DNA of 64,000 bases, from assembly GCF_004310335.1 (NCBI RefSeq), contig NZ_SIRS01000001.1:558001-622000 (forward strand). The letters run 5' to 3'. The notes under the pieces were generated by a model. The model saw only the letters and a list, made by a program, of their open reading frames with translations, searched no databases and had not been told where the DNA came from. Below, piece by piece: positions 28,474 through 64,000 of the stretch (its first letter is position 1; every line of letters begins with the position of its first letter). The DNA is from Hyunsoonleella pacifica. GTDB lineage: Bacteria > Bacteroidota > Bacteroidia > Flavobacteriales > Flavobacteriaceae. Both the position numbers and the translations under genes were made by a program.

Positions 28474-29916
28474 ATGAGATTAAATAGGAAAAACCAAGGG
28501 TTAGAAAATAAAAATCCAATAAAAATAGTTCAATTTGGAGAAGGTAATTTTTTGAGAGCCTTTGTAGACTACGCAATCTACGAGCTAAATAAAAAAGCAA
28601 ATTTTAATGCAGGTATAGCAGTCATACAGCCCATTGATAAAGGGGTAATAGATATGCTAAACGATCAAGATGGTTTATATACATTATTTACAAAAGGTGT
28701 TAAAAAAGGTAAAATAATTGAAGAGCAAAAACTGATTGATACTATTGTTACTAGTGTTAATCCTTATGAAGACTTTAATAAGTATATAAGTTTTGCTAGG
28801 GAAGAGTCTTTAGAATTCGTAATTTCTAACACTACGGAAGCAGGAATAGTTTATGTTTCTAGAGATACCCAAGATATGAAACCCCCGAGTTCTTTTCCGG
28901 CAAAATTAACCTGTTTTCTTTACGAAAGGTACAATTGGTTTAATGGAGATAAAGATAAAGGCTTAACAATAATTCCATGTGAGCTTATTAATTACAATTC
29001 AGACACATTAAAAGATATCATCTTAAAATATATTTCCGATTGGAATTTAGAAAATGATTTTAAAAATTGGGTTTTGGAACACAATTCATTTCATAATACT
29101 TTGGTGGATAGAATTGTTCCTGGCTATCCTAGAGATGATATTGAAGCCTATAATGCCCAACTAAACTATTCAGATAAACTAATTGTTTCTGCAGAAACTT
29201 TTCTGTTATGGGTTATAGAAGGAGGGGAAAAACTTAAAAAACAGTTGCCATTCGATAAAACCGATTTAGATGTTAAAATAGTTGAAGATATGCAACCTTA
29301 CAGAACAAGAAAGGTTCGCATATTAAATGGCGCTCATACATCTATGGTGCCCTTTTCTTTACTTTATGGAAATGAAACAGTAAAAGAATCTGTTGACAAT
29401 GAATTTACAGGGAAATTTATTCAAGACCTAGTTTTTAATGAGGTTATCGATACTTTAAATATGGAAAAAAGTGAATTGAATAGTTTTGCCAATGAGGTTT
29501 TTGATCGGTTTAAAAATCCATTTATAGTCCACAAACTAGCAAGTATTGCTCTAAATTCTATCTCAAAGTTTAAGGTAAGAGTTTTACCCAGTCTAATAGA
29601 ATATATTAAGATACATGACAAATTGCCAACTAATTTAACGTTTGCTTTTGCTTGCCTATTAAGGTTCTATAAGGGTACATGGAATGGTAAAGCTTTACCA
29701 GTAAATGATGATGAAAGAGTTATGGATAATTTTGTTAGAATATGGAGTAATAGTGATATTGAAAATGTAGTAAAACAAATTTTAAGTATAAAATCATATT
29801 GGGGACAAGACTTAACACAAGTAACAGGTTTAATACCTACAATGGTTTTGGTTTTGAAAGAAATTGAATTACATGGCATTGAAAAAGGGTATGAAAATTA
29901 TGCTCGAGTTTATTAG
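28474..29916 (+). CDS. uxaB: Tagaturonate reductase (altronate oxidoreductase)
   Basis: UxaB reduces D-tagaturonate to D-altronate with NADH in hexuronate breakdown. The 480-residue protein belongs to the polyol/mannitol dehydrogenase family: dinucleotide loop FGEGNFLR at 21-28, and catalytic K280, N285 and H288 in KVRILNGAHTS. Assignment as UxaB rather than fructuronate reductase UxuB rests on the N-terminus typical of Bacteroidetes UxaB and on the adjacent altronate dehydratase gene 30 bases downstream. The ATG at 28474 follows a strong promoter and operator. Confidence 0.88.
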   Translation: MRLNRKNQGLENKNPIKIVQFGEGNFLRAFVDYAIYELNKKANFNAGIAVIQPIDKGVIDMLNDQDGLYTLFTKGVKKGKIIEEQKLIDTIVTSVNPYEDFNKYISFAREESLEFVISNTTEAGIVYVSRDTQDMKPPSSFPAKLTCFLYERYNWFNGDKDKGLTIIPCELINYNSDTLKDIILKYISDWNLENDFKNWVLEHNSFHNTLVDRIVPGYPRDDIEAYNAQLNYSDKLIVSAETFLLWVIEGGEKLKKQLPFDKTDLDVKIVEDMQPYRTRKVRILNGAHTSMVPFSLLYGNETVKESVDNEFTGKFIQDLVFNEVIDTLNMEKSELNSFANEVFDRFKNPFIVHKLASIALNSISKFKVRVLPSLIEYIKIHDKLPTNLTFAFACLLRFYKGTWNGKALPVNDDERVMDNFVRIWSNSDIENVVKQILSIKSYWGQDLTQVTGLIPTMVLVLKEIELHGIEKGYENYARVY

Positions 29917-29946
29917 TTTTTTTAGATAACAATTACGAAACAACAA

Positions 29947-31554
29947 ATGCAAAATAAACTTATAAAAGTAAATGCATCAGACAACGTTGCTGTAGCATTA
30001 ATTGATTTAAATGCAGGAGCTTTAGTGTCTTTTGAAGGAGAGGATATAAAAATAGTTTCTAATGTAAAATCTAAACACAAAATAGCATTAGCAAACTTTA
30101 AACCTAATGATAAGATAATTATGTATGGTGTTCTTGTAGGTTTAGCAAATACTACAATTAAAAAAGGAGATGTTTTAACTGTTGATAATGTAACACATCA
30201 AAGTGAAAAAGTTTTTGGTAAAACAGCATCTTTTAATTGGGAATCCCCAAATGTAGAGAAGTGGAAGAATAAAACGTTTCTGGGATATCATAGAGATGAT
30301 GGGCAAGTGGGTACAGAAAATGTTTGGCTATTTTTTCCTTTAGTTTTTTGTGAAAACAGGAATATTGAAATCCTTAAGGATATTTTTGAAAGAGAATTAA
30401 TTAAGCAAAAACCGAATCCACACCAAATCTTACTTCGCTCTTTGGTAAGTGGAGAAGACGAAGTTGAAAAGATAGATAAACAAACCGATGTTTTTGAAAA
30501 TATTGATGTTAAATTTATTACACATGCTTCTGGATGTGGTGGTATTAGACAAGATGCAGAGAGTTTAGCAAAATTGTTAGCTGGTTATGTAAATAACCCA
30601 AACGTTGCTGGAGCTACAGTGCTAAGTTTGGGGTGTCAAAATCTACAAATAAATATTTTTGAAGACGCATTAAATAAGATCAATCCAGTTAATAAAAAAC
30701 CTGTTTTAATCTATGAACAGCAGCAAATGGGTACTGTAGATAATATGCTATCTACTATAATTAAAGATACTTTTGCAGCTATTAAAGAAGCAAATAAGAT
30801 AGAAAGAAAACCAGCACCATTATCAAAATTACAAATTGGTTTAGAATGTGGAGGATCTGATGGTTTTTCTGGAATATCTGCAAATCCAACACTTGGAGCA
30901 GTTTCTGATTTAATTGTAGCATTGGGGGGAACAGCTGTTTTAGCAGAGTTTCCTGAATTGTGTGGCGTAGAACAAGAACTTGTGAATAGGTGTGTAGATG
31001 ATAAAGATGGAGAAAAGTTTTTAAAGTTGATGAAGGCTTATGAAAAATCTGTAGTAGATGCAGGTTCAGGGTTTGATATGAATCCCTCTCCAGGCAACAT
31101 AAAAGATGGTTTAATTACTGACGCTATGAAATCTGCTGGTGCAGCCAAAAAAGGAGGAACTTCTCCAGTAGAAAGTGTTTTAGATTACGGAGAATATATT
31201 ACCAAAACAGGACTAAACTTATTGTGTACTCCCGGTAATGATGTAGAAAGTACAACAGGTTTAGTGGGCTCAGGAGCCAACTTAATTTTATTTACAACAG
31301 GTTTAGGAACTCCAACAGGAAACCCTATTGCACCTGTAATTAAAGTATCTTCAAATACAGAACTTAAAGCAAAAATGCCAGATATTATAGATATTGAAAC
31401 AGGCGCTATAATTAGAGGAGAAAAAACAATAGATGAAATGGCAGATGAAATGCTCAATTTTATTATTGAAGTTGCTAGTGGTAGAATACAAACGAAAGCG
31501 AAACTATTAAATCAAGATGATTTTATTCCTTGGAAAAGAGGTGTGTCACTATAG
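29947..31554 (+). CDS. uxaA: Altronate dehydratase
   Basis: UxaA dehydrates D-altronate to 2-keto-3-deoxygluconate and is a cytoplasmic iron-dependent enzyme. The 535-residue protein has an N-terminal SAF-like domain (about 1-95) and the large catalytic domain with HASGCGGIRQDAE, LGCQNLQ and LECGGSDGFSGISANP, all features of the UxaA/GarD family. It follows uxaB by 30 bases and the two form an operon. KDG kinase, KDPG aldolase and uronate isomerase are not in the window, so the pathway must be completed elsewhere. Confidence 0.92.
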   Translation: MQNKLIKVNASDNVAVALIDLNAGALVSFEGEDIKIVSNVKSKHKIALANFKPNDKIIMYGVLVGLANTTIKKGDVLTVDNVTHQSEKVFGKTASFNWESPNVEKWKNKTFLGYHRDDGQVGTENVWLFFPLVFCENRNIEILKDIFERELIKQKPNPHQILLRSLVSGEDEVEKIDKQTDVFENIDVKFITHASGCGGIRQDAESLAKLLAGYVNNPNVAGATVLSLGCQNLQINIFEDALNKINPVNKKPVLIYEQQQMGTVDNMLSTIIKDTFAAIKEANKIERKPAPLSKLQIGLECGGSDGFSGISANPTLGAVSDLIVALGGTAVLAEFPELCGVEQELVNRCVDDKDGEKFLKLMKAYEKSVVDAGSGFDMNPSPGNIKDGLITDAMKSAGAAKKGGTSPVESVLDYGEYITKTGLNLLCTPGNDVESTTGLVGSGANLILFTTGLGTPTGNPIAPVIKVSSNTELKAKMPDIIDIETGAIIRGEKTIDEMADEMLNFIIEVASGRIQTKAKLLNQDDFIPWKRGVSL

Positions 31555-31565
31555 CTTTTATGTAG

Positions 31566-32582
31566 TTATTTTTTAGAAGATGATGCTCTTATTATTAATT
31601 TAGGTTCTAATACTATGTGTTTTTCTTCTTTTAAAATTGAGTTGTTATTTATTTGTTTTATGAAAACCCCAGCAGTTTCTTTGCCAATTTCTATTGGAGA
31701 TTGATCAACTGAACTTATTGATAGTTCCATAAATTTAGTAAAAGGCTCATTACTAAAACCTACAATACCTATATCTTTAGGTATATTTATATCTTGTTTT
31801 TTCAACTCTTTAATAGCTCCGAGAGCAGCAAAATCACTTGATGAAAAAATCGCATCTGGACGTTTGTCTAATTTCAATAACATTTTAATGGCATTTTTAC
31901 CATCTTCACGATTACTTTTCGTTTTTATAATATAATCCTCATTTATTTTGAGTCCAGAATCTAATAAAGCTTGTTTGTAGCCCAAATATCTTTGTTTAAA
32001 AATCTCAACAGAATAATCGCCTCTAAAATGAGCAATTCTTTTATAGCCTTGATCGATGAGGTGTTTTGTAGATTTATATCCAGCATCAAAATCATTTATA
32101 GTAACAGAACTTACACCTTCAAAACTTTTTTTCCGATCAAAAAAAATGAGTGGGATTCCTTTTTTTATAATCTTTTCAAAGTTTTGTTTTTCTGAGTTTG
32201 GTGTTGTAGAAATTAAAATACCATCAACTTGTGCATTGATAAGTGTATCAATACATTCTTTTTCAATAATAGGATCTTCATGGGTTTGACAAATTATTAC
32301 ATGATATCCAAGAGGGCGAATAGCTTCTTCAATGCCTCTAATAATGGAACCAAAGAAATTATTATCAATTCGAGGAACAATAACACCTACATTAAAGCTT
32401 TTACCACTCTTTAAAGCTTTTGCTACCCTATTTTGCTCATAATTCATTTCTTGAGCGGTTTTTTGAACTAACTCCTTTGTTTTCTTACTGATCCTATGAT
32501 TATTGTTTAAAGCTCTTGAAATAGTAGCAGCTGTAAGGTTAAGCTGTTTTGCTATATCGTATATAGTAGTTTTTTTTGACAT
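31566..32582 (-). CDS. LacI-family transcriptional regulator
   Basis: A 338-residue repressor-type protein. The N-terminal helix-turn-helix (TTIYDIAKQLNLTAATISRAL, about 4-24) is followed by the hinge helix (RVAKALKSGKS) and a periplasmic-binding-protein-like effector domain from about residue 60. It sits convergent to uxaA and upstream, on the same strand, of nothing else. A perfect palindrome at the uxaB promoter and a weaker copy over its own start codon suggest that it controls the uronate genes and itself. The effector could be a uronate, KDG or inositol; the sequence does not say. Confidence 0.92.
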   Translation of the reverse strand: MSKKTTIYDIAKQLNLTAATISRALNNNHRISKKTKELVQKTAQEMNYEQNRVAKALKSGKSFNVGVIVPRIDNNFFGSIIRGIEEAIRPLGYHVIICQTHEDPIIEKECIDTLINAQVDGILISTTPNSEKQNFEKIIKKGIPLIFFDRKKSFEGVSSVTINDFDAGYKSTKHLIDQGYKRIAHFRGDYSVEIFKQRYLGYKQALLDSGLKINEDYIIKTKSNREDGKNAIKMLLKLDKRPDAIFSSSDFAALGAIKELKKQDINIPKDIGIVGFSNEPFTKFMELSISSVDQSPIEIGKETAGVFIKQINNNSILKEEKHIVLEPKLIIRASSSKK

Positions 32583-32590
32583 CGATTATA
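32577..32590 (-). promoter_or_regulatory. Possible autoregulatory operator over the LacI gene start
   Basis: Reading the plus strand, TGACATCGATTATA matches the uxaB palindrome at 11 of 14 positions, including the central ATCGATTA. It overlaps the start codon of the regulator gene (32580-32582). Confidence 0.45.
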
Positions 32591-32631
32591 AATGTGATTC
32601 AAGAGAGAAGAGCAAATTAAAAATTTAATAT

Positions 32632-32639
32632 CAAAAATA
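32632..32639 (-). promoter_or_regulatory. Candidate -7 element for the LacI gene
   Basis: Reads TATTTTTG on the minus strand, 49 bases upstream of the start codon. Confidence 0.4.
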
Positions 32640-32757
32640 GCTATAAACTTAGCACTTCTTGTAAATACCTTTTCATTTCTAGAGAGATAGAATTATAAAT
32701 ACAATAATTACCAAAAGAGGTATAATATAAGAAGCTGAAAAATTACGATTAGAGTTT

Positions 32758-34332
32758 TTACGATAACAATACGTATATCAATATTGTTAAAAAGACAAGT
32801 ATAAAACCGTATGGCTTCACTTTAGACCATGATTTTTCCTCAATATCTTTTTCTTTGTAATAATGCATGTTTTCTTTTGAAGGGTAAACTTTTGAAACTA
32901 AAAACATAATAATGAAGTTTAGAAGAAATTCTATACCCCAAAGATGTACAAAATGAATATCTAAATTCAATATAAATGTTGTTAGAATATAAAATGTAAA
33001 TCCAAAGAATAAACCGGCTTTAGCACCTTTTGTATTAATTTGCTTAAAAAAGATGCCCGCTATAATGATCGAAGAAATTGGTATAAAAAAGATACCATTA
33101 AGTTCCTGTAATAATTGATATAACCCTTCTGGAGCATAAGCAACCATTGGTGCAACTGCAATGGCTATAATAGCTAAAACTACTGATGAAATTTTACCAT
33201 ATCTAACCAGCTTTTCATCCGAAGCATTTTTATCAATAATTTTTTTGTAAATATCTAAACAAAATATGGTACTCGCAGAATTTAAAACACTATTAAAAGT
33301 ACTTAAAACAGCTCCTAGAATAACAGCAGCAAAAAATCCAAAAAGGTAGGTAGGTAGCACCTTTTTTACAAGCATAGGATATATTAAATCTGGTGTTTCG
33401 TAATATTGATCCTGAAAATAATAATACGCAATTAATCCAGGCAATACAATTATAGCTGGTACAAAGAGTTTGAGAATGCCTGTATAAATCAATCCTTTTT
33501 GAGCTTCAACTAAGTTTTTAGCTCCAAAAGCCCGTTGTATAATGGCTTGGTTCATTCCCCAAAAATAGAGTTGATTAATCATTAAACCCGTAAATAATAC
33601 AGAAAAGGGGAGTACGGAGTCTGGTTTTCCGATGATATCAAACTTATCTGGGGCAAAATTATATACGGTACTTAAACCGCTAAACATATCGCCATTACCT
33701 ATTTGATATAAAGCAATAATGGGTATTAGCAAACCTCCTAGCATCAATCCAATTCCATTTAATGAGTCTGAATACGCCACTGCTTTTAGACCACCAAAAA
33801 TGGCATATAAGGAACCAATAACTCCAATAATTAATACGGTATAGATTAAAGATTGTCCTTTTGAAATGTTGAACATTTCAGAAAAATCAAAAACACTTTC
33901 AATATTTATAGCGCCAGAGTATAATACGATAGGCAGTAGGGTAATAACAAACGAAGACATTAAAAGAAAAGCAACAACAGATCTTATAACGCCATCAAAA
34001 CGCCTTTCTAAAAATTCCGGGATTGTGGTCAACCCCATTTTGATGAATTTAGGAATAAAATAAATAGCAGCTATAACTAGTGCAATAGCTGAAGTTACCT
34101 CCCAAGCAATAATAATTATTCCATTTTTATAAGAGCTCCCGTTCATTCCTATCAAATGTTCTGTGGAGATATTCGTTAGAATCATAGAACCTGCAATAAT
34201 AGGACCTGTTAAACTCTTTCCAGCTAAAAAATAACCTTTAGAAGTGGTAAATTTATCTTTTCTGAGTTTGTATGTTGTATAAAATATTACAAATAATGTA
34301 AACCCAAAAAAGCCTAGGTAAGTATAAAACAT
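32758..34332 (-). CDS. Sodium:solute symporter, probable inositol/sugar transporter
   Basis: An inner-membrane transporter of 524 residues with about 13-14 hydrophobic helices, belonging to the SSS/SGLT family. The family pattern is seen in GYFLAGKSLTGPIIAGSM and ISTEHLIGMNG near the N-terminus and YAIFGGLKAVAYSDSLNG in the middle. Family members carry sugars, inositol or other small solutes with Na+. It lies 33 bases downstream of the myo-inositol oxygenase gene on the same strand, so uptake of myo-inositol is the simplest inference; uronate or mannose remain possible. Confidence 0.85.
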   Translation of the reverse strand: MFYTYLGFFGFTLFVIFYTTYKLRKDKFTTSKGYFLAGKSLTGPIIAGSMILTNISTEHLIGMNGSSYKNGIIIIAWEVTSAIALVIAAIYFIPKFIKMGLTTIPEFLERRFDGVIRSVVAFLLMSSFVITLLPIVLYSGAINIESVFDFSEMFNISKGQSLIYTVLIIGVIGSLYAIFGGLKAVAYSDSLNGIGLMLGGLLIPIIALYQIGNGDMFSGLSTVYNFAPDKFDIIGKPDSVLPFSVLFTGLMINQLYFWGMNQAIIQRAFGAKNLVEAQKGLIYTGILKLFVPAIIVLPGLIAYYYFQDQYYETPDLIYPMLVKKVLPTYLFGFFAAVILGAVLSTFNSVLNSASTIFCLDIYKKIIDKNASDEKLVRYGKISSVVLAIIAIAVAPMVAYAPEGLYQLLQELNGIFFIPISSIIIAGIFFKQINTKGAKAGLFFGFTFYILTTFILNLDIHFVHLWGIEFLLNFIIMFLVSKVYPSKENMHYYKEKDIEEKSWSKVKPYGFILVFLTILIYVLLS

Positions 34333-34365
34333 TTCAATAAAGGTTAGTTAGTTGACTGTTGGTTG

Positions 34366-35235
34366 TTAAAATTTTAATACATCAGGTAAATATTTTTTAA
34401 CAAGTTCTTCATAATAAGGTTTAAGCGTTTTAACATCAGGTTTTACTGGTGCTTTTGTATATAGATCATAAGGGTTGAATTTTTTAACCCATTCAAACAT
34501 TTCTACATCTTTATTATTCATTAAATGACGGTATTCATTTTCACGGTGTTGCGCATAAAATGAATGGTATCTAATTATATATAAGGCAGGTTCGGGCAAA
34601 TAATCTTTTAATATTTGATATAAATATTCATCATGTCCCCAGCTCATCTTAACCTTGTCTAAACCACAATTAGGGGAATAAATACCATATTTAGTGTTAA
34701 ATTTAGGATTGGTTGAGTCTGGATTTTTATCAAAAAAATCAGCATGTACTATTTTATCAGAGAATTTACATCCAACAGGAAATGTATCGCCAACAACAGC
34801 CCACTGAGGTTCATCAAATAAGCAAAGTACTTTACCAACATCATGTAAAAACCCCGTTAAAACAAACCAGTCGGGATGACCATCAGCCCTAATAGCTTCA
34901 GAGGTTTGTAGTAAATGCTGTAATTGATCCAGATCAATATCAGGATCGCTGTCATCCACTAATGTGTTTAAAAAGTCTACAGCTTCCCAAATAGACATTT
35001 CTTTTCTGTTGAATTGTAAAAAATCGTTCTCTTTTTTAGAGACAAAATCATAAGTTTGAAATGTATGATTAAGCCTATAGAACTCTTTTACAGTTTCAGC
35101 TCTTTCAGAATCTTCATAATCTCTAAAGCCTTCTTTTTCTTTACTAGTAGTATTTGGTTCTGGGTACCTTTTAATTAAATCTTCTTCCCAGTGTTCTATG
35201 TTTTCAAGAGGTTGATTTATTGATGTTTTTTTCAT
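34366..35235 (-). CDS. Myo-inositol oxygenase
   Basis: MIOX uses a mixed-valent diiron site to cleave myo-inositol to D-glucuronate with O2. The protein has 289 residues, close to the eukaryotic enzyme. All six expected iron ligands are visible: H107 (QHLLQTSEA), H131 and D132 (GFLHDVGKVL), H201 (MSWGHDEYL), H224 (IIRYHSFYAQH) and D257 (FNPYDLYTK). The conserved VVGDTFPVGC segment is also present. No signal peptide is seen, so it acts in the cytoplasm, consistent with the symporter 33 bases downstream delivering inositol. It is divergent from susC. Confidence 0.94.
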   Translation of the reverse strand: MKKTSINQPLENIEHWEEDLIKRYPEPNTTSKEKEGFRDYEDSERAETVKEFYRLNHTFQTYDFVSKKENDFLQFNRKEMSIWEAVDFLNTLVDDSDPDIDLDQLQHLLQTSEAIRADGHPDWFVLTGFLHDVGKVLCLFDEPQWAVVGDTFPVGCKFSDKIVHADFFDKNPDSTNPKFNTKYGIYSPNCGLDKVKMSWGHDEYLYQILKDYLPEPALYIIRYHSFYAQHRENEYRHLMNNKDVEMFEWVKKFNPYDLYTKAPVKPDVKTLKPYYEELVKKYLPDVLKF

Positions 35236-35290: not shown

Positions 35291-35533
35291 TTAATAACTA
35301 TCAACACATTAGTAAATGAGAAATGATGTAAAACCAGTTCATAACAAATTTAATCACAGAGGTATTTGGTGTGATGGACTAATAGTTTATTTATATGGAT
35401 TATTTAATCAGCAGCAATCTTATTATTTATTTGTTTAGCATGTTTTTTTTTAAATAGAAGCTCAAGTTTAAACCTAATTTAATGTCAGGCAAAGCTTAAT
35501 ATTTTAGTCTATTTTAAATGATATTTCCATGTT

Positions 35534-35595
35534 TTTGATGTAAAACTCCATATCAAACTTTGGGTCTTAACTTAATTTTAACGAATATAATTTTG
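35534..35595 (+). promoter_or_regulatory. susC promoter with upstream inverted repeat
   Basis: TAATTTTG at 35588-35595 matches the -7 consensus, 20 bases before susC. TTTG at 35559-35562 is a possible -33 element with a 25-base spacer, longer than usual. The inverted repeat TTTGAT-N12-ATCAAA (35534-35557) just upstream is a candidate activator site, for example for the hybrid two-component regulator. Confidence 0.5.
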
Positions 35596-38600: not shown

Positions 38601-38669
38601 TTGCAAAACTCCTATAGTTCTGCATATATGACCAAAACAGTATTGTTTGGATTAAACGTATCATTATAA
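35616..38669 (+). CDS. SusC-family TonB-dependent outer-membrane transporter
   Basis: An outer-membrane barrel of 1017 residues that imports oligosaccharides or related ligands using TonB energy. A signal peptide (about 1-20) is followed by a carboxypeptidase-D regulatory-like domain (ISGVVTDEQSVPIPGVNVLI, from 24), the TonB-box-like VVVIGYG (about 107-113), the plug domain with YVVDGIFVDNINALNP, and a C-terminal barrel ending LFGLNVSL. It pairs with the SusD gene 18 bases downstream. The ligand cannot be read from the sequence, but neighbours point to mannose-, uronate- or inositol-containing glycans. Confidence 0.95.
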   Translation: MKKLKLLLIAFFIGALSVFAQDNISGVVTDEQSVPIPGVNVLIKGTSTGTSTDFDGNYEIQASNGDVIVFSYLGYQTQEISYSGQAKLDVKLSEDTAKLEEVVVIGYGSVKRTDLTGSVASIGSGDVVEQRKTDIGQALQGRLAGVDVRTLNNKPGAPLSITVRGNGALRNNNQGNDGVSDDPTSDLGSPLYVVDGIFVDNINALNPADIQQIDILKDASSTAIYGARGANGVVIITTKSGIEGRTRFNYDATFGIRSVVNSPNFYNGDEYVAFVNDVVRAREFGNLLNAGPASAADYNNIVPDTTVEFIGAEEQANALNGNYTDWIGLFQETGIQTSHTLSASGGQDGLLYNASVGYLKDEGVVGIEAFERYNLSGSLSKKVNDQLTFGVKTYIAFSEREEGSRELFRSSFRLPSTVDPFEDDGTLDLIPDEQDQRFINPIYEKNGAWRVNTKRFDIIANAFLEYKPLKWLNLKTQFSPSLVYNRFGEHRALLTKAARNDPGRTRAIYQSASIVTYTWDNIANMNFDIDDNNNLAATLISSLYHKEFERGNIQTRNLADEFLFFNTGQGTDVREFNSGFIKDNIASFAARLNYSHKDKYLFTLTGRYDGASRLAVGNKWDFFPSAAFAWKVSQEEFMQNLSWLNNMKVRLTYGQTGNIDTIGAYQSFSSLSGGTYLFGDDLVTTQVIAGLPNSELTWAVTTETNIGIDLGLFNNRVNLTVDYYNKDTDGSLFPRSLLAVSGFGSAIGNFGEVRNRGVEVVLNTTNIQTEDFRWRTSLNFSKNEAEILKIEGDVEEVPFGRHGVTKVGEDPAAIFSFENDGIWQLDEYAEAATFGARPGQYKFVDQNNDGVINNDDKVVIGSPTPDWFGGMTNIFTYKNFEARVQINTRQGSLGHSEFYQNFAPYQNDQAKFNKINLDYWTPNNPDASRPALAYAHPGEYYYEEFDFVKIGNIGFTYTLPSNVLDKLNLSGMRLSLDIQNPFVFTDYEGPDPETGLQNSYSSAYMTKTVLFGLNVSL

Positions 38670-56700: not shown

Positions 56701-57789
56701 GACGATGGTATAGGGATTCCAATAGAAAGTCAAGAGAAGATTTTTTCAAGATTTTATCAAGCGAGGAATAGTAAAAAGAACACCACAGGAACAGGAATAG
56801 GACTCTCGTTAGTTAAGGCACTTGTAGAAATCCACAAAGGTAATATAAGCGTAGAAAGCGAGCCCAACCAAGGGAGTGTTTTTACGGTAGAGTTACCTGT
56901 TAATAAAGACGCCTATACATTAGATGAAATCCTAGAGCTGGATAATGAAGATACCCAAAAACAACTTGAAAATATTACAAGTGAAGAACCTAAGGCACTG
57001 CTGAGGGTTAAAGACACCAAGGTTATTTTTGATGCCGATATAAAACACGAAGTTTTGGTCATTGAAGATAATCCAGAATTAAGGCAATACATTGTAGATT
57101 ATTTATCTGATTATTACAAAGTTTATGAAGCCGAAAATGGCAAAGAAGGTTTAGAAATCTGTAAAAAAGTGAAACCAGCCCTGTGTGTGGTGGATGTTAT
57201 GATGCCTGTAATGAATGGATTTAAATTTGTTGAAGCCGTTAAGAATGATGAAAACCTGAGCCATACTGCACTAATTTTGCTTACTGCATTAGCTGAAAAT
57301 GAGAATAGGATTAAAGGCTATAAAATTGGTGTAGATGGGTATTTGGTAAAACCATTTGACCCCGCCTTACTAAAATCTCGAATAGAAAACGTAATTAAAA
57401 TACGTTTTGAGTTAAAACAACAATTTTCAGGAGAGGCAGAAAGTGATGTGATGACCTTAGCTCATTCGCAGATAGATATTGATTTGATATCTAAAATAAA
57501 AGAGATTATCGAAACCAATATGAATTCGTCTCAATTAACACCAAGTTTCGTCTCCACCGAAATGGCCATGAGTACTTCAAAATTATATAGAAAAATTAAA
57601 CAGCTTACTAATTTGTCGCCCAATGAGTTTATAAGAACCATCCGTTTAAAAAAATCTGCCGAGCTCTTAAAAACCAAACGCTATAATGTATCAGAAGTAT
57701 CAGATTTAGTTGGCTTTAATGACCCCCTATATTTTAGCCGTGTCTTTAAAAAACAATTTGGGTATTCTCCAAGTGAATTACTTAAATAG
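53758..57789 (+). CDS. Hybrid two-component system regulator (HTCS)
   Basis: A single-protein sensor and activator of 1343 residues. The order is: signal peptide (about 1-20), a periplasmic beta-propeller of Reg_prop repeats (about 25-660), a Y_Y_Y domain (about 690-765), a transmembrane helix (about 771-795), histidine kinase with H834 in ISHELRTP, ATPase domain, receiver with D1146 in VVDVMMP, and a C-terminal AraC-type DNA-binding domain. The TTG at 53758 completes the signal peptide; the ATG at 53788 would truncate it. It is 11 bases after the phosphoesterase and closes the operon, so it probably activates its own locus when an oligosaccharide binds. Confidence 0.95.
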   Translation: MKKFNFLCFTMYLFCCYAQAQELVFEHYNEINGLSHNSVRDIVQDSNGFLWIGTFGGVNRFDGYDFKAYQSKVNTPNYLHSDDILEIVIDKHDNLWIATDFGLTKYNISTHTFKTYHANKNEKNKIIGDKIRSVFIDNSDRLWVGTMQNGICFYDEKDDKFHEVDIEGVKNIRSIYQTSNGKIWFTTFNMGVFSFTIDKNNKISQLLNHRLFPAKGELQNDSDAYFILEDHQNDLYIGTKDGLYKYNQQEAKFRLLHKDGLGEYFRCYTVAPDGKYWFGTSNGIIECESIDEIKRNTYKRYVPDISNTSSLANNYVLSLFFDYSGILWVGTENGLDKLDPYENQFKTIKANFTSKGSIPIISCFAKTYNDKLLIGTHSNGIFLKDENSFTQILNKYTKISSIYTVNNIDFYVGLWSGKVVAFNLKTKRERLLSVGFTSSPVLTFHQTSKEKMLIGSVGEGLVEYNLNTKTYSKINSELQALNDVNKIVPDKGNIVWLATEEGVFKYNTHTKETRHYKHEVNKESLSNNKVKDIIVDVNGNVWVATRKGLNYYDAKKDNFLPKEDPSELKNSWITDIATDINGCLWLNMNYNKIVKYIPEKNEYRSFHINNGVRSNLINKRGFLQYDNTRIYIGGDKDIIYFSPVDIKENTNAPKPLITEFKIQNEEVLPGVRIDNQIVLNKDLNYDNNVELTYGNRNFSIEFSIPSYANERLNTYQYKLEGFDNKWNTTTSNSRAIQYTNLYPGKYTLQVKASNNNGYWSDESRYNITILPPFWLTYQFFIIVLILLAILTYFLRKQIKYRIRLKQELLLEKDRRERDERLNNEKLRLFTNISHELRTPLTLILGPAKQLLNQDYNGQRAKNKISLIHQNANRLLRLVNQILDFRRAETGELRLKISEVDVLQTTKSIFYSFVELAESKNINFNFNTEDEAIVCWVDFDKLNKILYNLLSNAMKFTNNFGNVDLFIGIKDNEKDKLIIEVSDDGIGIPIESQEKIFSRFYQARNSKKNTTGTGIGLSLVKALVEIHKGNISVESEPNQGSVFTVELPVNKDAYTLDEILELDNEDTQKQLENITSEEPKALLRVKDTKVIFDADIKHEVLVIEDNPELRQYIVDYLSDYYKVYEAENGKEGLEICKKVKPALCVVDVMMPVMNGFKFVEAVKNDENLSHTALILLTALAENENRIKGYKIGVDGYLVKPFDPALLKSRIENVIKIRFELKQQFSGEAESDVMTLAHSQIDIDLISKIKEIIETNMNSSQLTPSFVSTEMAMSTSKLYRKIKQLTNLSPNEFIRTIRLKKSAELLKTKRYNVSEVSDLVGFNDPLYFSRVFKKQFGYSPSELLK

Positions 57790-57956: not shown

Positions 57957-59261
57957 ATGGCGCATAGAGAAAAGACACCAGTTGTTCCCAAAAAAATGGT
58001 CATACCATTTATACTAGTAACCTCTTTATTTGCCTTATGGGGATTTGCCAATGCGGTAACCGACCCCATGGTTCAGGCCTTTAAAAAGGTATTGGAGCTA
58101 TCAAATTCTCAAGCTGCTTGGGTACAAATGGCATTTTATGGAGGCTATTTTTGTATGGCGCTACCTGCGGCGATGTTTATGAGAAAATACTCTTATAAGA
58201 CAGGAATATTAATTGGATTAGGACTATATGCCGTTGGAGCTTTGTTGTTTTATCCCGCCGCCACAACAGAACTATTTTGGTTTTTCTGTTTGGGACTTTA
58301 TATTTTAACTTTCGGATTAGCATTTTTAGAAACAGCGGCAAACCCTTATGCTTTGGCAATGGGGCCAAAAGAAACGGCGACCCAACGATTAAATTTAGCG
58401 CAAGCATTTAATCCGGTAGGACTCATATTGGGATTATTTGTGGCTCAACAGTTTGTACTTAAAAATCTACAATCTGATGACATTGAAAATTTTAGTGCTT
58501 TGGATGAAGCATCTAAAATTCTTATTAAAACTTCAGATTTACTGGTCATTAGGAATCCATATGTTATTCTTGGTCTGGTACTGGTTGGTGTTTTTGTGTT
58601 GTTTTTAGTGAGTAAAATGCCCCAAGCTAGAGAAGAAGGGGAGATGCCAAGTATGGGTAATACATTTTCAGTATTAATCAAAAATAAGAAATATATTTTG
58701 GGTGTACTAGCGCAGATACTGTATGTGGGAGCACAAATTATGTGTTGGACTTATATTTACCAGTATGCAGAGGGCATAGGTATGGATAGCGTAACCGCTG
58801 GATATTATCAAATGGCGGCTTTTATTTTATTCACATTTGGTAGAGCTATAGGAACTTATATGTTAAGATTTATTGGTTCAGGTAAGTTACTCATGATTTT
58901 TGCCATACTAGCCATGTGTTTTGTACTGGGTACCATTTTTATTAAAGGAGTTGTTGGTTTGTATGCATTAGTTGGCGTATCCTTTTGCATGTCTTTAATG
59001 TTCCCAACTATTTATGGTATTGCACTTAAAGATTTAACCGAGGAACAATCTAAAGTAGGTTCAGCAGGTTTGGTAATGGCTATAGTGGGAGGAGCTTTAA
59101 TGCCAAAGTTACAAGGTATGATTATAGATTTAGGAGGCAGTGGGGTTGCTGATACTCAAATATTAGGCGTATCAGAAGTATCTTTTTCTTTCGTTTTGCC
59201 ATTATTATGCTTTCTGTATATTACTTGGTATGGGCATCTGGTTAGTAAGTTTAATGTGTAA
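57957..59261 (+). CDS. FucP-like sugar MFS transporter
   Basis: An inner-membrane transporter of 434 residues with about 12 helices, resembling the L-fucose/H+ symporter group of the major facilitator superfamily. A family landmark is FALWGFANAVTDPMVQAFK (about 20-38), with a second conserved FLETAANPYALAMGP segment. Bacteroidetes members transport various monosaccharides, and mannose or a uronate would fit this locus. The gene begins 167 bases after the HTCS and is followed after 23 bases by the GxGYxYP gene. Confidence 0.88.
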   Translation: MAHREKTPVVPKKMVIPFILVTSLFALWGFANAVTDPMVQAFKKVLELSNSQAAWVQMAFYGGYFCMALPAAMFMRKYSYKTGILIGLGLYAVGALLFYPAATTELFWFFCLGLYILTFGLAFLETAANPYALAMGPKETATQRLNLAQAFNPVGLILGLFVAQQFVLKNLQSDDIENFSALDEASKILIKTSDLLVIRNPYVILGLVLVGVFVLFLVSKMPQAREEGEMPSMGNTFSVLIKNKKYILGVLAQILYVGAQIMCWTYIYQYAEGIGMDSVTAGYYQMAAFILFTFGRAIGTYMLRFIGSGKLLMIFAILAMCFVLGTIFIKGVVGLYALVGVSFCMSLMFPTIYGIALKDLTEEQSKVGSAGLVMAIVGGALMPKLQGMIIDLGGSGVADTQILGVSEVSFSFVLPLLCFLYITWYGHLVSKFNV

Positions 59262-59276
59262 CATGTTTCAAACATG
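59262..59276 (+). repeat. Short inverted repeat between MFS and GxGYxYP genes
   Basis: CATGTTT and AAACATG pair perfectly around a single C immediately after the transporter stop, followed by ATTTTTG. It could be a weak transcription pause or mRNA hairpin in an otherwise continuous operon. Confidence 0.4.
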
Positions 59277-59284
59277 ATTTTTGT

Positions 59285-61201
59285 ATGATTTGTAATTTGA
59301 TAAGTTTTTTTCTCAATAGAAATAATATAAATACACTACTAGTTGTAGTAATGTGTGTTACGTGTTTTCAGGCTTGTGATAAGAATAATAAGAAACAGAA
59401 AGAGCAAATTAATCATTATATAAATGGTCTGGACACTTTTAAAGATGAAGGGCAGTATTGGCATTTGGAGATGAAAATAAAGCCAAAATATTACTGGTCT
59501 TGCACTGAAGTTGTACCAAAGCCAAATAAAAATGAGTTAGGACATAAAGAACAAACTAAAGGTTTACAGTATCATTTACTTTGTCAATCTATTGCCGGAT
59601 TGACCAACAGAGCAGTAGAACAAGGAAAAAGCGATGTTGCTATTTGGTTACACGACCATGGAGGAAAAGAATCGTATCGTTTAATACAAAAAACGTTAGA
59701 TGATATGGAGATTGAAGAACAGGGTAAACAAACAGGTGTTGAACTGGCTACTAAATCGTATCAAGATGATAATGGAGTAAAAGTTAATATAAAAGATTTG
59801 TTTAATGGTTATGTATTAACAGACGTAGAAAATAATCCTGAAAGTAACACGGTGGCTACTGTAGCCTCTCATGTATATAACTCTATAATTGTGGACGTTA
59901 GAGATAAAGAATTCTTTAAAAAATCAGGATATAAAATGATGTATGATGCCTCTAAAAAAAGTACTCTAGATGCATGGAAAGAGTTTAAAGATAAATGTAG
60001 CAATAAAGCCCTAGTAATAATGCCAGTAGGAACTGGAGAATTAAGAGAGCTTGCTATAAAAAATAATTTGTTTACTATCAATTTGAATAAGGAATACAAT
60101 AATTCGAAATCTGGACAAAATGTAGCATTATTTGAAGAGATTTTAAAATGGTTGAAACCGGGAGCTCCTATTTATGGCTGGGAACAAGGTGTTTCAGAAG
60201 ATTTATTTGTGAATAAGGTATCTGAATACGCTCACATTATGATGCCGGCTGATTGGTTTTACAATACAAGTTTAACATCATTAAATTATGAAAAACGACA
60301 AAATGGTAAGGTAAAAGTTTTAAACCCAAAAACCATCAATTTTCAAGAAGAGGGAAAGAAATATATCTCTTATTACTTATCTGATGGCGATAATGTGCAA
60401 TGGATGATGAATGGATTTTATTCAGTTGACTACTATAAGCATCCTGAGGTAAAAGCAACAAAAATGGGTTTTGGTTTACCTATAGATAACTTGTCTATGA
60501 TGGCCCCAGAAATGTTGCAGCTACTTTTAGAAAAACAAGTTCCAGAAACTACTATTATTCAAACTTTTGGAGGAGGTTATAATTATGCTGATTTATATGG
60601 GCAAAAAACAGATAGAACTAAAAGCCTTAATAGAATAGCTGATAATATAGCTGTTTATATGAAACAACATAACGTAAAAATTTTAGCTTTAATGGCAAAG
60701 GATGTGCATTCTGAAGCGGCTAGAGAAGCATATCAAACCTATGTTAATGCGAATGATAAATTGGAAGGTATTTTAGCAGTCCAATATGCGCCTTATGCTG
60801 GAGGAGCAGGAGATATTATGTGGGTTACCAACTCAAAAGGATATGATATTCCTGTAGTCAGTGTTAAGTATGCAATTTGGAATTTTGGAAATATAAATAC
60901 AGAGCGTGAAGGAAACCCTACGTTTGTAGCTCAAAAATTGAACTTAGAAAATTTAGAAAACCCATTTAGTTTAATTTCTGTCCACGCTTGGAGCAGATTT
61001 ACTGATATAGGAGATTTTGTTAATACAATAGAAGAGAACAAACTAGGTAATGTTATTGGTGCTGGTGCTGCAAAACTAAGTTCAGATAAATTAAGTGAAG
61101 CGTTTAAAGTGGTAAGTGTAGAAGAGTTAATTTGGAGGATAAGAATGCATTATAAACCAGAACAAACTGTTAAACGAATAAAACAAATGGAAATTTTATG
61201 A
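59285..61201 (+). CDS. GxGYxYP-family putative glycan-active lipoprotein
   Basis: A 638-residue protein matching the GxGYxYP family, which is often found near glycoside hydrolases and has no activity that I know of. The N-terminal region contains LLCQSIAGLTNRA (about 97-109). The C-terminal region has YLSDGDNVQWMM (D367, D369) and GGGYNYA at 429-435, a variant of the family's naming motif with alanine for proline. A lipobox FQAC gives C31. It lies 23 bases after the transporter and overlaps the GH38 gene by 4 bases (ATGA). The acidic DGDN motif could be catalytic or metal-binding, but this is speculative. Confidence 0.8.
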   Translation: MICNLISFFLNRNNINTLLVVVMCVTCFQACDKNNKKQKEQINHYINGLDTFKDEGQYWHLEMKIKPKYYWSCTEVVPKPNKNELGHKEQTKGLQYHLLCQSIAGLTNRAVEQGKSDVAIWLHDHGGKESYRLIQKTLDDMEIEEQGKQTGVELATKSYQDDNGVKVNIKDLFNGYVLTDVENNPESNTVATVASHVYNSIIVDVRDKEFFKKSGYKMMYDASKKSTLDAWKEFKDKCSNKALVIMPVGTGELRELAIKNNLFTINLNKEYNNSKSGQNVALFEEILKWLKPGAPIYGWEQGVSEDLFVNKVSEYAHIMMPADWFYNTSLTSLNYEKRQNGKVKVLNPKTINFQEEGKKYISYYLSDGDNVQWMMNGFYSVDYYKHPEVKATKMGFGLPIDNLSMMAPEMLQLLLEKQVPETTIIQTFGGGYNYADLYGQKTDRTKSLNRIADNIAVYMKQHNVKILALMAKDVHSEAAREAYQTYVNANDKLEGILAVQYAPYAGGAGDIMWVTNSKGYDIPVVSVKYAIWNFGNINTEREGNPTFVAQKLNLENLENPFSLISVHAWSRFTDIGDFVNTIEENKLGNVIGAGAAKLSSDKLSEAFKVVSVEELIWRIRMHYKPEQTVKRIKQMEIL

Positions 61202-64000
61202 GAAAAATACTATTGCTATTCATGTTCAGTAGTTTGACCATTTATGGACAGAGGAATCAAAAACCCAATGAAGTTTTTCTAGCAGGATATGCAGAAAAAA
61301 TATCTGGCAATGAAATTGAACATAGAGCAAAAGAAGTAGCAGGGTTAAACCGAACAATAGTTTCTAGAGCCAACGTTGGCAATCAGAGAATAGAATGGAA
61401 AACAGTACCAGTAGATATTAAAAAGCACGATGGAGAAATAACCTTTGTACATTATGCAGGATATGATGCCAAAGGGCCAGGAACTATATTTAATTTTTAT
61501 GTAAACGATGTAAAGCAAGGAGAAATAGTATTGCCAGGAACAAAAACAAGTCGTTGGTCTATACCCTTAAAAAACAAAGGAACCCTTAGTTTTGAAAAGC
61601 ATTATTTAGACAATAACAATGGTTGTTTTGGCTTTTTATATTATACAGTACCTGCCAAGAGCCTTAAAAAAGGAACGTCCTTAAAGTTAGCTGTAGATGC
61701 TGTTAACAAAAAGAAACAAACCTATTTTAAGATATTTAAAAAGAACCTTACAGAAGCTATAAACATTACGGCATTACCAGCTTTAATTAACAAAAACGGA
61801 AAAAACTTTCAAACGCTAATTGCAGAAATTGTTTTTATAAAAAAACCAGCAAATGGACAGTTAAGTATTGATGGTAAACTAGAAAGAACGATTAATTTAA
61901 AACCAGGCATACAAACTATTAAAATAATTTATCCTGAAGTTAAAAAAGAAAAAACAGTAACGCTAAGTTTAGATTTAGGAGATGAGAAAATTACAGAAAG
62001 AATTAAATTAAAACCGCTAAAAAAGTGGGAGGTTAATTTTGTACAACATTCGCATACTGATATAGGATACACAAGGTCTCAAACAGAGATTTTAGCAGAA
62101 CACCCTAGATATATTGATTATGCTTTAGATTATTGTGATGCTACAGACAATTTCCCAGAAACCTCAAGATTTAAATGGACTTGCGAAGCCTCATGGGCAG
62201 TAGATGAGTTTTTAAACAGTAGGTCCCAAGAACAAATTGAACGATTAAAAAAGCGAGTTGAAGAAGGAAGAATAGAAATAACAGGAATGTATTTCAATTT
62301 TAATGAGCTACCAGATGAGCCATCATTAGCAGCATCATTGGCGCCAATTAAAAACATTGCAGATAAAGGTATAAAAGTTACATCTGCAATGCAAAACGAT
62401 GTAAACGGTATTGCATGGTGTATGAATGATTACTTTAACACCTTAGATGTTAAATATTTAACCATGGGAACTCATGGGCATAAGGCTTTAATTTCTTTTG
62501 ATACCCCTTTAGCTTTTTGGTGGGTGTCTCCATCAGGAAAAAAGATGTTAACCTATAGAGCAGAGCATTACATGACAGGGAATACTTTTGGAGTACATCA
62601 ATCCGATTTTGAGAGTTTTGAAAAACACCTCCTGGAGTATCTAATTAAACTAGAAGAACGTGGGTACCCTTACAGTAAAACAGCGATACAACATTCAGGT
62701 TTTATGACCGATAATTCTCCACCATCAATGAAAGCAAGCCATTTAATTAAACAATGGAACGAGAAATACAAGTGGCCAAAAATTAGAACGGCTGTGGCTA
62801 GTGATTTTTTTGAAGATTTTGAAAAGGAGTACGGCAAAGACCTTATAGAAGTTAAAGCACATTGGCCAGATTGGTGGACAGATGGTGTTGCCTCTGGAGC
62901 TAGAGACGTAGCCGCAACTAGAAATGCCCATGTAAATCTAATTGCAGGCCAAGGTGGTTTATCAATGGCAAAACTAATGGGGTCTAGTATGCCTAAAGGC
63001 ATAGACGCCCGAATATTTGAAGCCAACAAAGCCCTTCTGTTTTATGGAGAACATACATTTGGCGCTCAAGAGAGTATTTCGCAACCGTATAGTAAAGCCA
63101 CTATGGAACAACGTGAAATAAAGGAATCCTATGCTTGGGAGGCCTCAAGAAGGTCTAGCATGATAGTTGAGGAAGCTAAAGGCTTGTTAAATGAGTACAT
63201 GGGGAAATCTAAGGACGCATCTATAGCAGTTTTTAATACATTAAATTGGGAGCGAGAAGGTCTAATAGAAATGTTTATAGATCACCAACAAGTACCTCAT
63301 GGAAAAAAAATACGATTAGTAGATGATAATGGGGTTGTATATCCTGCTCAAATACTAAAACCTTGGCATGGAGGTACGTATTGGACAGCTTGGGTAAAAA
63401 ACATTCCGCCTTTTGGATATAAAAAATTCAATATAGAAGTTTATGAAGACCACCACGCTCACTCGCATGCAAATGGAGAAAGGCATAGTCACAATGCTAA
63501 TTTCGATTATAAAGAAAAAACGCATTATATTCAGTTAGATAACCCTTGGTATTCTATTAAAATAGATAAGAAAAAAGGAACAATAGCCCAGATTTATGAT
63601 AAAGATTTATCTAAAAATATTCTAGATAAAACATCACAATACAACTTAGGAGAATTCATTTTAGAAAAACTTGGAGGAAGAGAGCAATTACAAATTACAA
63701 AAACTGTAAATGGCGCACGATATGGACATTTAAAAGACTATACAAGACAGCCTTTAGATAGTGTTTGGCTTTCTGAAATTAAAGAAGGCGAAATATGGAA
63801 TACAATTAAGTTTAGAGGAAAAACAGAAACAGCTTATGATGATTTAGAAGCATTTTCATTTGAAATTAAGCTCTTTAATACAGCAAAAAGAATAGACTTT
63901 GCGTTTGAACTAAAGAAAAAACCTATAGTAGACCCAGAGAGTTTTTATATTTCGTTTCCATTTAAGTTAGACGAAGGTAAAATACACTTTGAAATTTCGG
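61198..64000 (+). CDS. GH38 alpha-mannosidase, 3' end outside window (partial)
   Basis: An open frame from the ATG at 61198 stays open to the right edge, giving at least 934 residues. A Sec signal (about 1-17, LFMFSSLTIYGQ) is followed by about 265 residues of beta-rich sequence not typical of the family. The GH38 catalytic domain then starts with zinc ligands H286 and D288 in HSHTDIGYT (residues 284-292) and has the nucleophile D401 in QNDVNG, then TGNTFG and AHWPDWWTDG. Six histidines lie in residues 752-765. GH38 is a retaining alpha-mannosidase acting on N-glycans or mannans. Its start overlaps the previous stop. Confidence 0.92.
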   Translation, partial: MRKILLLFMFSSLTIYGQRNQKPNEVFLAGYAEKISGNEIEHRAKEVAGLNRTIVSRANVGNQRIEWKTVPVDIKKHDGEITFVHYAGYDAKGPGTIFNFYVNDVKQGEIVLPGTKTSRWSIPLKNKGTLSFEKHYLDNNNGCFGFLYYTVPAKSLKKGTSLKLAVDAVNKKKQTYFKIFKKNLTEAINITALPALINKNGKNFQTLIAEIVFIKKPANGQLSIDGKLERTINLKPGIQTIKIIYPEVKKEKTVTLSLDLGDEKITERIKLKPLKKWEVNFVQHSHTDIGYTRSQTEILAEHPRYIDYALDYCDATDNFPETSRFKWTCEASWAVDEFLNSRSQEQIERLKKRVEEGRIEITGMYFNFNELPDEPSLAASLAPIKNIADKGIKVTSAMQNDVNGIAWCMNDYFNTLDVKYLTMGTHGHKALISFDTPLAFWWVSPSGKKMLTYRAEHYMTGNTFGVHQSDFESFEKHLLEYLIKLEERGYPYSKTAIQHSGFMTDNSPPSMKASHLIKQWNEKYKWPKIRTAVASDFFEDFEKEYGKDLIEVKAHWPDWWTDGVASGARDVAATRNAHVNLIAGQGGLSMAKLMGSSMPKGIDARIFEANKALLFYGEHTFGAQESISQPYSKATMEQREIKESYAWEASRRSSMIVEEAKGLLNEYMGKSKDASIAVFNTLNWEREGLIEMFIDHQQVPHGKKIRLVDDNGVVYPAQILKPWHGGTYWTAWVKNIPPFGYKKFNIEVYEDHHAHSHANGERHSHNANFDYKEKTHYIQLDNPWYSIKIDKKKGTIAQIYDKDLSKNILDKTSQYNLGEFILEKLGGREQLQITKTVNGARYGHLKDYTRQPLDSVWLSEIKEGEIWNTIKFRGKTETAYDDLEAFSFEIKLFNTAKRIDFAFELKKKPIVDPESFYISFPFKLDEGKIHFEIS

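Follow-up and report, generated by a model that had tools for sequence, protein, structure and literature searches.

A candidate utilization locus for glucuronylated inositol phospholipids in Hyunsoonleella pacifica and related Bacteroidota

Introduction

What substrate calls for a phosphatidylinositol-specific phospholipase C (PI-PLC), a myo-inositol oxygenase (MIOX) and several glycosidases at a single locus? The question is raised by a 64,000-nucleotide stretch of the 4.13-Mb genome of Hyunsoonleella pacifica (C1:558001-622000), referred to here as the window. A preliminary description of this stretch named, besides PI-PLC and MIOX, a metallophosphoesterase (MPE), several families of glycoside hydrolases (GH), a SusC/SusD pair, a hybrid regulator, a sodium symporter and uronate enzymes, and proposed a route for degrading inositol-linked glycans. 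Profile searches against Pfam and NCBIfam, from which all gene calls below were made (coordinates are positions in the window), confirmed each of the enzymes named. We propose that the locus serves to utilize glycosylated inositol phospholipids with alpha-glucuronate bound to the inositol, of the type of plant or algal glycosyl inositol phosphoceramides (GIPCs), and that in H. pacifica the caps are rich in mannose. Judging from gene content and conservation, we hold this identification to be fairly probable.

Organization of the locus

The core of the locus is a run of ten forward-strand genes (35616-57789). It begins with susC, which encodes a TonB-dependent outer-membrane importer (35616..38669; TIGR04056, 790 bits), and ends with a hybrid two-component system regulator (HTCS; 53758..57789) containing Reg_prop, Y_Y_Y, HisKA, HATPase and receiver domains and an AraC-type output domain, HTH_18. 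Between them lie, in order, genes for a SusD-type surface glycan-binding lipoprotein (38688..40346; PF07980), GH92 alpha-mannosidase a (40462..42537; PF07971), a GH28 protein of the polygalacturonase family (42541..44169; PF00295), GH92 alpha-mannosidase b (44174..46471; PF07971), a GH125 protein of the alpha-1,6-mannosidase family (46515..47954; PF06824, 518 bits), a calcium-dependent PI-PLC (47957..49018; PF16670, 418 bits), a GH115 alpha-glucuronidase (49015..51966; PF15979/PF17829, 436 bits) and the MPE (51974..53746; PF00149). The successive gaps from susC to the regulator are 18, 115, 3, 4, 43, 2, -4, 7 and 11 bases, the negative value being a 4-base overlap between the PI-PLC and GH115 genes. 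The reverse strand (32758-35235) carries the genes for MIOX (34366..35235; PF05153, 366 bits) and a sodium:solute symporter (SSS; 32758..34332; PF00474; NF007790, 680 bits), which diverge from susC across a 380-base gap. With adjacent susC and susD, carbohydrate-active enzymes (CAZymes) and a regulator in one cluster, the locus has the architecture of a polysaccharide utilization locus (PUL). Lipoprotein-like N termini, detected with a loose pattern, were found in SusD, GH92a, GH92b, GH125 and PI-PLC. The eleven genes compared were 92-99% identical to those of a locus in Hyunsoonleella ulvae (L131; Flavobacteriaceae).

Linkage of PI-PLC and MIOX across genomes

Among 397 Flavobacteriaceae genomes, counted by hand from listings, full-length PI-PLC was encoded in 28 and full-length MIOX in 62; both were present in 24 genomes, where independence predicts 4.4 (Fisher p 7e-18, uncorrected for relatedness). 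The two genes were no more than 25 kb apart in 17 of these 24, and in H. pacifica the single full-length MIOX and the single PI-PLC of the genome both belong to this locus, about 13 kb from each other. The preliminary description had placed the two enzymes in one route, and the co-occurrence agrees with this: MIOX and PI-PLC recur in orthologous loci, although some related loci lack PI-PLC. The alternative that PI-PLC or MIOX is a passenger was rejected on these linkage statistics.

A set of 17 loci was chosen for the presence of both genes (G399, whose MIOX has two internal stops, was dropped, and G202, from a phylum sample, was added). SSS and SusC were found in all 17 loci, HTCS and MPE in 16, GH92b in 15 and GH115 in 12; no glycosidase of this family of loci is more conserved than GH92b. 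The 17 PI-PLCs clustered in the PI-PLC tree (2 label changes, compared with 14.4 in shuffles). Two genomes of the same genus (G519 and G699) encode neither PI-PLC nor MIOX, indicating that the locus is accessory.

From a scan with the PI-PLC alignment, the best 80 named loci among 514 relatives were taken. On the genes found within about 10 kb, 49 of them were classed as glycan-type and 31 as other loci. Glycosidases were used in this sorting, so that their presence or absence in either class is partly built in; MIOX was not used. The hosts of the glycan-type loci are Hyunsoonleella, Seonamhaeicola, Algibacter, Maribacter, Cellulophaga, Flavobacterium and other Flavobacteriaceae, together with Ancylomarina and a metagenome-assembled genome (MAG) of Prolixibacteraceae. 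Full-length MIOX was found in 46 of the 47 genomes searched behind these 49 loci, the Prolixibacteraceae MAG being the exception; it lay inside the fetched locus in 22 cases, within 30 kb on the same contig in 21 more and on another contig in 3 (L146, L151 and L153). MPE and HTCS were each present in 48 of the 49 loci, GH92 in 47 and GH115 in 38, and GH115 or a distant relative of it in 44 (hand count).

The 31 other loci (L178-L187 and L189-L209) include SusC in 26 cases and MPE in 20; GH2 occurred in one (L183), and GH92, GH115, GH29 and GH89 in none. They resemble PUSI of Flavobacterium johnsoniae (Fjoh_4168-4173), in which PusCD, a PI-PLC and a phosphodiesterase are reported in the cited passages to be induced by phosphate depletion (PMC8115612), and are found beyond Flavobacterium, in Algoriphagus, Zobellia and others. 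This raises the possibility that the window locus is an elaborated PUSI cluster, induced at low phosphate, that scavenges phosphate. PI-PLC and MPE beside SusC without glycosidases recur in other Bacteroidota, such as Algoriphagus, and the side-by-side arrangement of a SusCD-type pair, a PF16670 PI-PLC and a PF00149 phosphodiesterase, which is the published PUSI layout, is seen in the window as well (PMC8115612). However, PUSI is described in those passages without CAZy enzymes, whereas the window locus has five between susC and the regulator (two GH92, GH28, GH125 and GH115) as well as an HTCS and MIOX; the PUSI-like loci seen here lack GH92, GH115, GH29 and GH89 and the sequence box described below before susC; and gaining phosphate does not require that the carbon of inositol be oxidized. 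Phosphate scavenging is therefore, in our estimate, a highly unlikely function for the locus.

A box shared by MIOX and susC

The direct repeat TCCAT-N16-TCCAT was spotted by eye in a weak overall alignment of seven MIOX-susC gaps and was tested on the same and further loci. The window contains exactly two exact sites, both in the MIOX-susC gap: one faces MIOX (35374..35399, reverse strand) and the other faces susC (35526..35551, forward strand), 90 bases ahead of its start. When one mismatch was allowed, 8 sites were found in the window compared with 4.2 expected, so that only exact sites stand out. The 17 loci (696 kb) contained 34 exact sites, 13 before susC, 13 before MIOX, 5 before other locus genes and 3 within genes, whereas five runs of first-order random sequence gave 0-5; the 31 other loci (1.07 Mb) contained 7, none before susC.

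For a pooled count, 300-base upstream regions were used, with identical sequences merged and close relatives kept. An exact box faced the gene in 29 of 34 MIOX and 14 of 16 glycan-type susC regions, leaving 5 and 2 regions, respectively, without one, and was found before none of 61 susC of other loci and none of 327 inner genes; G717 has it before neither MIOX nor susC. Among alternative spacings from 8 to 24, only 22 (two MIOX) and 24 (one inner gene) occurred. Where the gap is shared, the box of the opposite gene also appeared in the region counted (9 susC and 2 MIOX regions). In a later set of 19 MIOX genes outside the fetched loci, 12 had an exact box, 3 had one with a single mismatch (two of them more than 400 bases away) and 4 had none. 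All three genomes with MIOX on another contig had the exact box before it. MIOX genes away from such loci had no box (G629, G703, G677, G524, G732, G707, G531 and G522, and the genes of a second class, with about 44-46% identity to the window MIOX, which were read in 5 genomes and lie elsewhere in each), nor had the second MIOX of G798; in G506 the box precedes susC and not MIOX.

The published HTCS motifs are described in the cited passages as direct repeats, with 16-bp sites and a 5-bp spacer or 12-bp sites and a 9-bp spacer, both giving a 21-bp period, and one motif is of the form 14 plus 6 (PMC3878776). The box found here is likewise a direct repeat with a period of about 21 bp. By analogy, we infer that the HTCS of the locus binds TCCAT-N16-TCCAT, and the shared box would place MIOX in the same regulon as susC. 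In three genomes, the gene for a 462-aa protein containing 3-keto-disaccharide hydrolase domains diverges from susC and has a box of its own (L092:679-2067, L101:11372-12760 and L119:16390-17778), which hints that the regulon includes an oxidative branch for cleaving glycosides.

The phospholipase and the metallophosphoesterase

The AlphaFold model of PI-PLC (pLDDT 92) matched best the folds of bacterial calcium-dependent PI-PLCs (5fyp/5fyr and 3h4w) and then mammalian PLC-delta. H32, N33, E77, D79 and H123 were invariant among 29 relatives; from the roles of their counterparts in PLC-delta, we take these H-N, E-x-D and H positions to be catalytic and calcium sites. Family score, fold and conserved motifs thus agree in assigning the protein to the calcium-dependent PI-PLCs.

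The MPE model (pLDDT 91) resembled Lmo2642 and then SMPDL3A and acid sphingomyelinase, with low TM scores; these matches came from the fold search only, a sequence search of solved structures giving none. Its residues D32, H34, D97, N131, H132, H314, H363 and H365 were invariant among 31 relatives and presumably form the metal site. The fold is common to many phosphoesterases and does not fix the substrate; from the model, we propose an inositol-phosphate phosphatase or phosphodiesterase, or a second lipase. A phospholipase C of the fungus Botrytis cinerea (BCIN07g04350), which is annotated as a sphingomyelinase, frees inositol-phosphate glycans from plant GIPC according to the cited passages (PMC11496612). 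By analogy with that annotation, MPE might be a second, or even the main, lipid-cutting enzyme. Several loci without PI-PLC keep MPE (G540, G688, G021, G025 and G206). The fungal enzyme shares with the system proposed here a microbial phospholipase C activity on plant GIPC; it is probably not a PF16670 protein and is presented as a single enzyme, with no catabolism of the released glycan mentioned in those passages (PMC11496612). On the evidence of conserved sites and predicted folds, PI-PLC and MPE look active, as does MIOX on the sequence comparison given below.

PI-PLC has esterase partners in some relatives. At L092:14534-16372 (Pfam) it is fused to an N-terminal alpha/beta-hydrolase esterase of the BD-FAE type, with genes of similar length at L096:13868-15721 and L108:13871-15721, and in L142 the gene directly before PI-PLC encodes an esterase that also carries a SASA acetylesterase domain. 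The head groups may accordingly be O-acylated.

Inositol and uronate catabolism

MIOX of the window aligned with mouse MIOX (2huo; E 1.4e-85) over residues 29-288. It is a full-length PF05153 protein, and what we take to be the six iron-ligand positions of the diiron site are all kept. SSS is proposed to import inositol or uronate. The preliminary description envisaged a complete route to central metabolism. MIOX, UxaC and UxuA are indeed present in the genome; the uronate enzymes of the window, however, belong to the galacturonate branch and not the glucuronate branch, and UxaC and the best UxuA lie outside the locus (C32:161033-162412 and 165360-166520). In G640, UxuA and a mannonate oxidoreductase adjoin MIOX, and UxaC adjoins SSS. 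Glucuronate, the product of MIOX, is also the sugar released by GH115, so that a single pathway would serve both halves of a glucuronate-inositol unit.

Glycosidases of the locus

The closest solved relative of the window GH115 is BtGH115A (5by3), with which, as with the GH115 enzymes of xylan, it shares the catalytic and C-terminal domains; we take BtGH115A to act on arabinogalactan. In a tree that included all 12 GH115s of at least 850 aa from the 17 loci and 10 from named loci, these 22 formed one clade (100/100) that excluded 19 further GH115s from related genomes; a long-branch warning applied to the latter. Fucosidase-type loci encode, right after SusD, a protein of about 685 aa (L092:7251-9302 and relatives in G588, G609, G713, G584 and named loci such as L145, L147 and L160) that is very distantly related to GH115 (68.6 bits; 22-24% identical to the GH115 of the window). 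It may represent a new subfamily of glucuronidases or be a binding protein. The solved relatives of GH125 are 3p2c, BT3781 (2p0v; E 9.8e-160) and the exo-alpha-1,6-mannosidase 5m7i, and those of GH28 are mostly pectin enzymes. GH10 was the xylanase family searched for in the genome, and none was found. The genes of the window locus that were scanned with Pfam included no GH76 or GH99 endo-mannanase, and GH28 was the only backbone-cutting hydrolase family assigned among them. No sulfatase was found among the proteins scanned in the window and the fetched related loci.

These families invite comparison with loci for ordinary acidic polysaccharides or glycoprotein glycans, such as glucuronomannan, arabinogalactan proteins or algal mannan, in which case PI-PLC and MIOX would be passengers or would handle side products, for example the lipid anchor of arabinogalactan proteins. 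Such a substrate would suit the relationship of GH115 to BtGH115A and the presence of GH28 and galacturonate genes in the locus. GH76 or GH99 endo-mannanases are typical of yeast-mannan loci, and in this respect the window locus differs from them. The Bacteroides thetaiotaomicron regulons HTCS_Man-1 to -3 resemble it in SusCD, mannosidases, an HTCS and a direct-repeat box of 21-bp period, and HTCS_Man-1, an alpha-mannan regulon, lists a glucuronidase; PI-PLC and MIOX are unmentioned in the cited passages on these regulons (PMC3878776). GH92 and GH125 together with an HTCS are common to both systems, the window GH125 being a relative of BT3781. On the other hand, GH28 alone would have to provide backbone cleavage, the genome has no GH10 xylanase, and the cap enzymes vary between loci, whereas MIOX and the box rank among the features that change least. 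We regard a substrate of this kind as distinctly unlikely. A plain mannan or xylan locus, more particularly, was rejected as the main reading on the constancy of MIOX and the box against the variation of the mannosidases and on the lack of GH10.

Variable cap enzymes and the nature of the head group

The accessory enzymes vary from locus to locus and include GH29, GH3, GH2, GH43, GH51, an alpha-galactosidase, rhamnosidase-like enzymes, and GH89 with an acetyltransferase of the HGSNAT/NagX type. GH89 and this acetyltransferase were always paired (the same 8 of the 49 loci), and the 8 loci with GH89 and the 9 with GH125 showed no overlap. In lysosomes, glucosamine-glucuronate units of heparan are cleared by the acetyltransferase HGSNAT and then by NAGLU, a GH89 enzyme. 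The same pair of activities is found here; the difference from the lysosomal pathway is that the genes belong to a utilization locus, next to those for PI-PLC and GH115.

The main competitor of a GIPC-type substrate is a glycosylphosphatidylinositol (GPI) protein anchor of algal, fungal or plant origin, in which three mannoses and glucosamine are linked to inositol, phosphate and lipid. PI-PLC acts on GPI; mannosidases would trim the mannoses, the acetyltransferase and GH89 would remove glucosamine, PI-PLC would cut the anchor and MIOX would burn the inositol. The assignment of GH125 to the alpha-1,6-mannosidase family, the action of GH92 enzymes on alpha-mannose and the possibility that GH89 and the HGSNAT-like enzyme remove glucosamine from inositol would all be in keeping with this. 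GPI is not known to contain glucuronate, however, and yet GH115 or its distant relative is present in 44 of the 49 loci. The fucosidases, the arabinofuranosidase and the enzymes resembling rhamnosidases would be superfluous, and among the 49 loci GH89 and GH125 never occur together. We consider GPI an unlikely substrate.

Phosphatidylinositol mannosides (PIMs) of actinobacteria and mannosyl-inositol-phosphoceramides of fungi are mannose-inositol-phosphate lipids for which mannosidases, PI-PLC and MIOX would suffice. PIMs are not known to contain glucuronate for GH115 to act on; for the fungal lipids, the same follows from the description of glucuronosyl inositol phosphoceramide synthesis as plant-specific in the passages on GIPC. 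Some of the hosts, for instance Hyunsoonleella ulvae and Maribacter ulvicola, have names that hint at seaweed. We judge these lipids very improbable. The substrates listed in the preliminary description thus fared unequally: its plant GIPC type is favoured, while PIM, which explains neither GH115 nor the GH89 of the relatives, is the least likely.

A GIPC-type lipid is, in our view, the reading that suits these features best. PI-PLC and MIOX point to an inositol phosphate substrate, and GH115 or its distant relative points to alpha-glucuronate in it. In plant GIPC, glucuronate is bound to inositol and is followed by mannose or (N-acetyl)glucosamine, with arabinose, galactose, mannose and fucose beyond, according to the cited passages (PMC9113257, PMC12201980 and PMC11288761), and 102 GIPCs of barley grain are all listed there with a hexosamine or N-acetylhexosamine. 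The cap enzymes of the loci match this list of sugars: GH92 and GH125 in the window and, elsewhere, GH29 with GH3, GH43, GH51, GH2, alpha-galactosidase, and GH89 with the acetyltransferase. Compared with plain mannan, xylan or pectin, a glucuronylated inositol-phospholipid glycan is the better fit, in view of the lack of GH10, the separate GH115 clade and accessory enzymes that track GIPC head groups. A phospholipase C, an alpha-glucuronidase, inositol oxidation and cap glycosidases, apparently in one regulon, are the genes expected of a GIPC locus, with PI-PLC missing in some relatives.

For a GIPC-type substrate, the following order and place of steps can be proposed. SusD and SusC would bind and import the head-group glycan, and surface and periplasmic GH92 and GH125 (and GH38) would trim alpha-mannose, while GH28 would take off a residue, perhaps galacturonic. 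PI-PLC would cleave the phosphodiester to free the head group from the lipid, MPE would remove or open the phosphate, and GH115 would split alpha-glucuronate off inositol. SSS would carry inositol (or uronate) into the cell, where MIOX would oxidize inositol to glucuronate, and glucuronate from both halves would enter UxaC, mannonate oxidoreductase and UxuA. The HTCS would sense the released glycan and turn on susC and MIOX through the TCCAT-N16-TCCAT boxes.

Several points weigh against a GIPC-type substrate. Many of the host genera are marine, and bacterial PI-PLCs classically need a free 2-hydroxyl on inositol, which some GIPC linkages would block. Given the plant-specific synthesis mentioned above, the proposal requires, for marine hosts, an algal lipid whose core is similar. 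Since HTCS_Man-1 lists a glucuronidase, mannosidases with a glucuronidase are in themselves no proof of an inositol lipid. GH28 and the tagaturonate and altronate enzymes suggest galacturonate, which is absent from the GIPC sugars named in the cited passages, and 5 of the 49 loci have neither GH115 nor its distant relative. Nor is PI-PLC indispensable, as some related loci lack it: 4 of the 28 genomes with PI-PLC have no full-length MIOX and 38 of the 62 with MIOX have no full-length PI-PLC. Boxed MIOX loci occur in genomes without full-length PI-PLC (G688, G548 and G592) or with PI-PLC elsewhere in the genome (G021, G025 and G206), and G540:C6 (L123, L210) has the whole window-type locus except PI-PLC, with a box of one mismatch.

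In G540, PI-PLC is found in a PUSI-like place elsewhere (C4, L122). In loci of G677 (L215), G531 (L220) and G707 (L219), MIOX is found with SusCD, GH89 and an HGSNAT-like acetyltransferase, but PI-PLC and the box are both missing; GH2 is also present in G531 and G707, and GH95 (Pfam) in G531. Their gene content suggests a second kind of inositol-glycan locus.

Comparison with described systems

The preliminary description knew of no PUL with this combination of genes, and none was found among the literature matches listed; a search for MIOX together with PUL found no paper, subscription papers and preprints lying outside these searches. The parts are of known kinds (PUL, PUS and HTCS regulon), while we know of no precedent for their combination or for the inferred class of substrate. 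Whether the loci together represent a widespread bacterial system for GIPC-type lipids, in which a fixed core converting glucuronate-inositol entirely to glucuronate is joined to interchangeable cap modules for mannose, fucose, glucosamine or galactose/arabinose, is in our view evenly balanced. GIPC-type lipids are called the predominant sphingolipids of the earth's biomass in the cited passages (PMC12201980). If such a system exists, a large membrane pool of carbon and phosphorus has dedicated consumers, which others could find and test by means of the gene set and the box, and the cap enzymes of a genome would predict still-unsolved head groups of algal GIPC, for example mannose-rich or fucosylated ones. 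The loci would also be a source of candidate enzymes for taking apart the head groups of GIPC, whose chemical analysis is difficult.

Neighbouring genes

Beyond SSS, the window encodes a tagaturonate reductase of the galacturonate branch (28474..29916, forward; NF002969, 656 bits) and an altronate/galactarate-type dehydratase (29947..31554, forward; PF20629, 322 bits), each in 6 of the 17 aligned loci, and a LacI-family regulator, perhaps of uronate genes (31566..32582, reverse; PF00356/PF00532; 2 of 17). The HTCS gene is followed on the forward strand by genes for a FucP-type sugar permease (57957..59261; TIGR00885, 510 bits; 9 of 17), a GxGYxYP putative glycoside hydrolase (59285..61201; PF14323; 2 of 17) and the GH38 alpha-mannosidase (from 61198; PF01074; 2 of 17). 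GH38, which the preliminary description counted in the locus, was confirmed by its profile; its gene continues past the window end at 64000 to L003:3642 (L003:199-3642; 1147 aa) and is poorly conserved. Downstream of the window are genes for a LacI regulator, a second GH38, an RraA-like protein and a sugar porter. The downstream GH38, GxGYxYP and RraA genes show poor conservation, and they may be part of another locus.

In Flavobacterium loci, a protein of 597-598 aa without a Pfam family recurs near PI-PLC (L053:16339-18135 and L140:6556-8349), often with a DUF4861 protein. Farther downstream of the window (L003:10503-16595), a row of genes encodes a short-chain dehydrogenase/reductase (SDR), a beta-propeller lactonase, a solute-binding protein, an enoyl-CoA hydratase, a CoA-transferase III and a UxuA/TIM-barrel protein, and is followed by more GH92 genes in L003 and L004.

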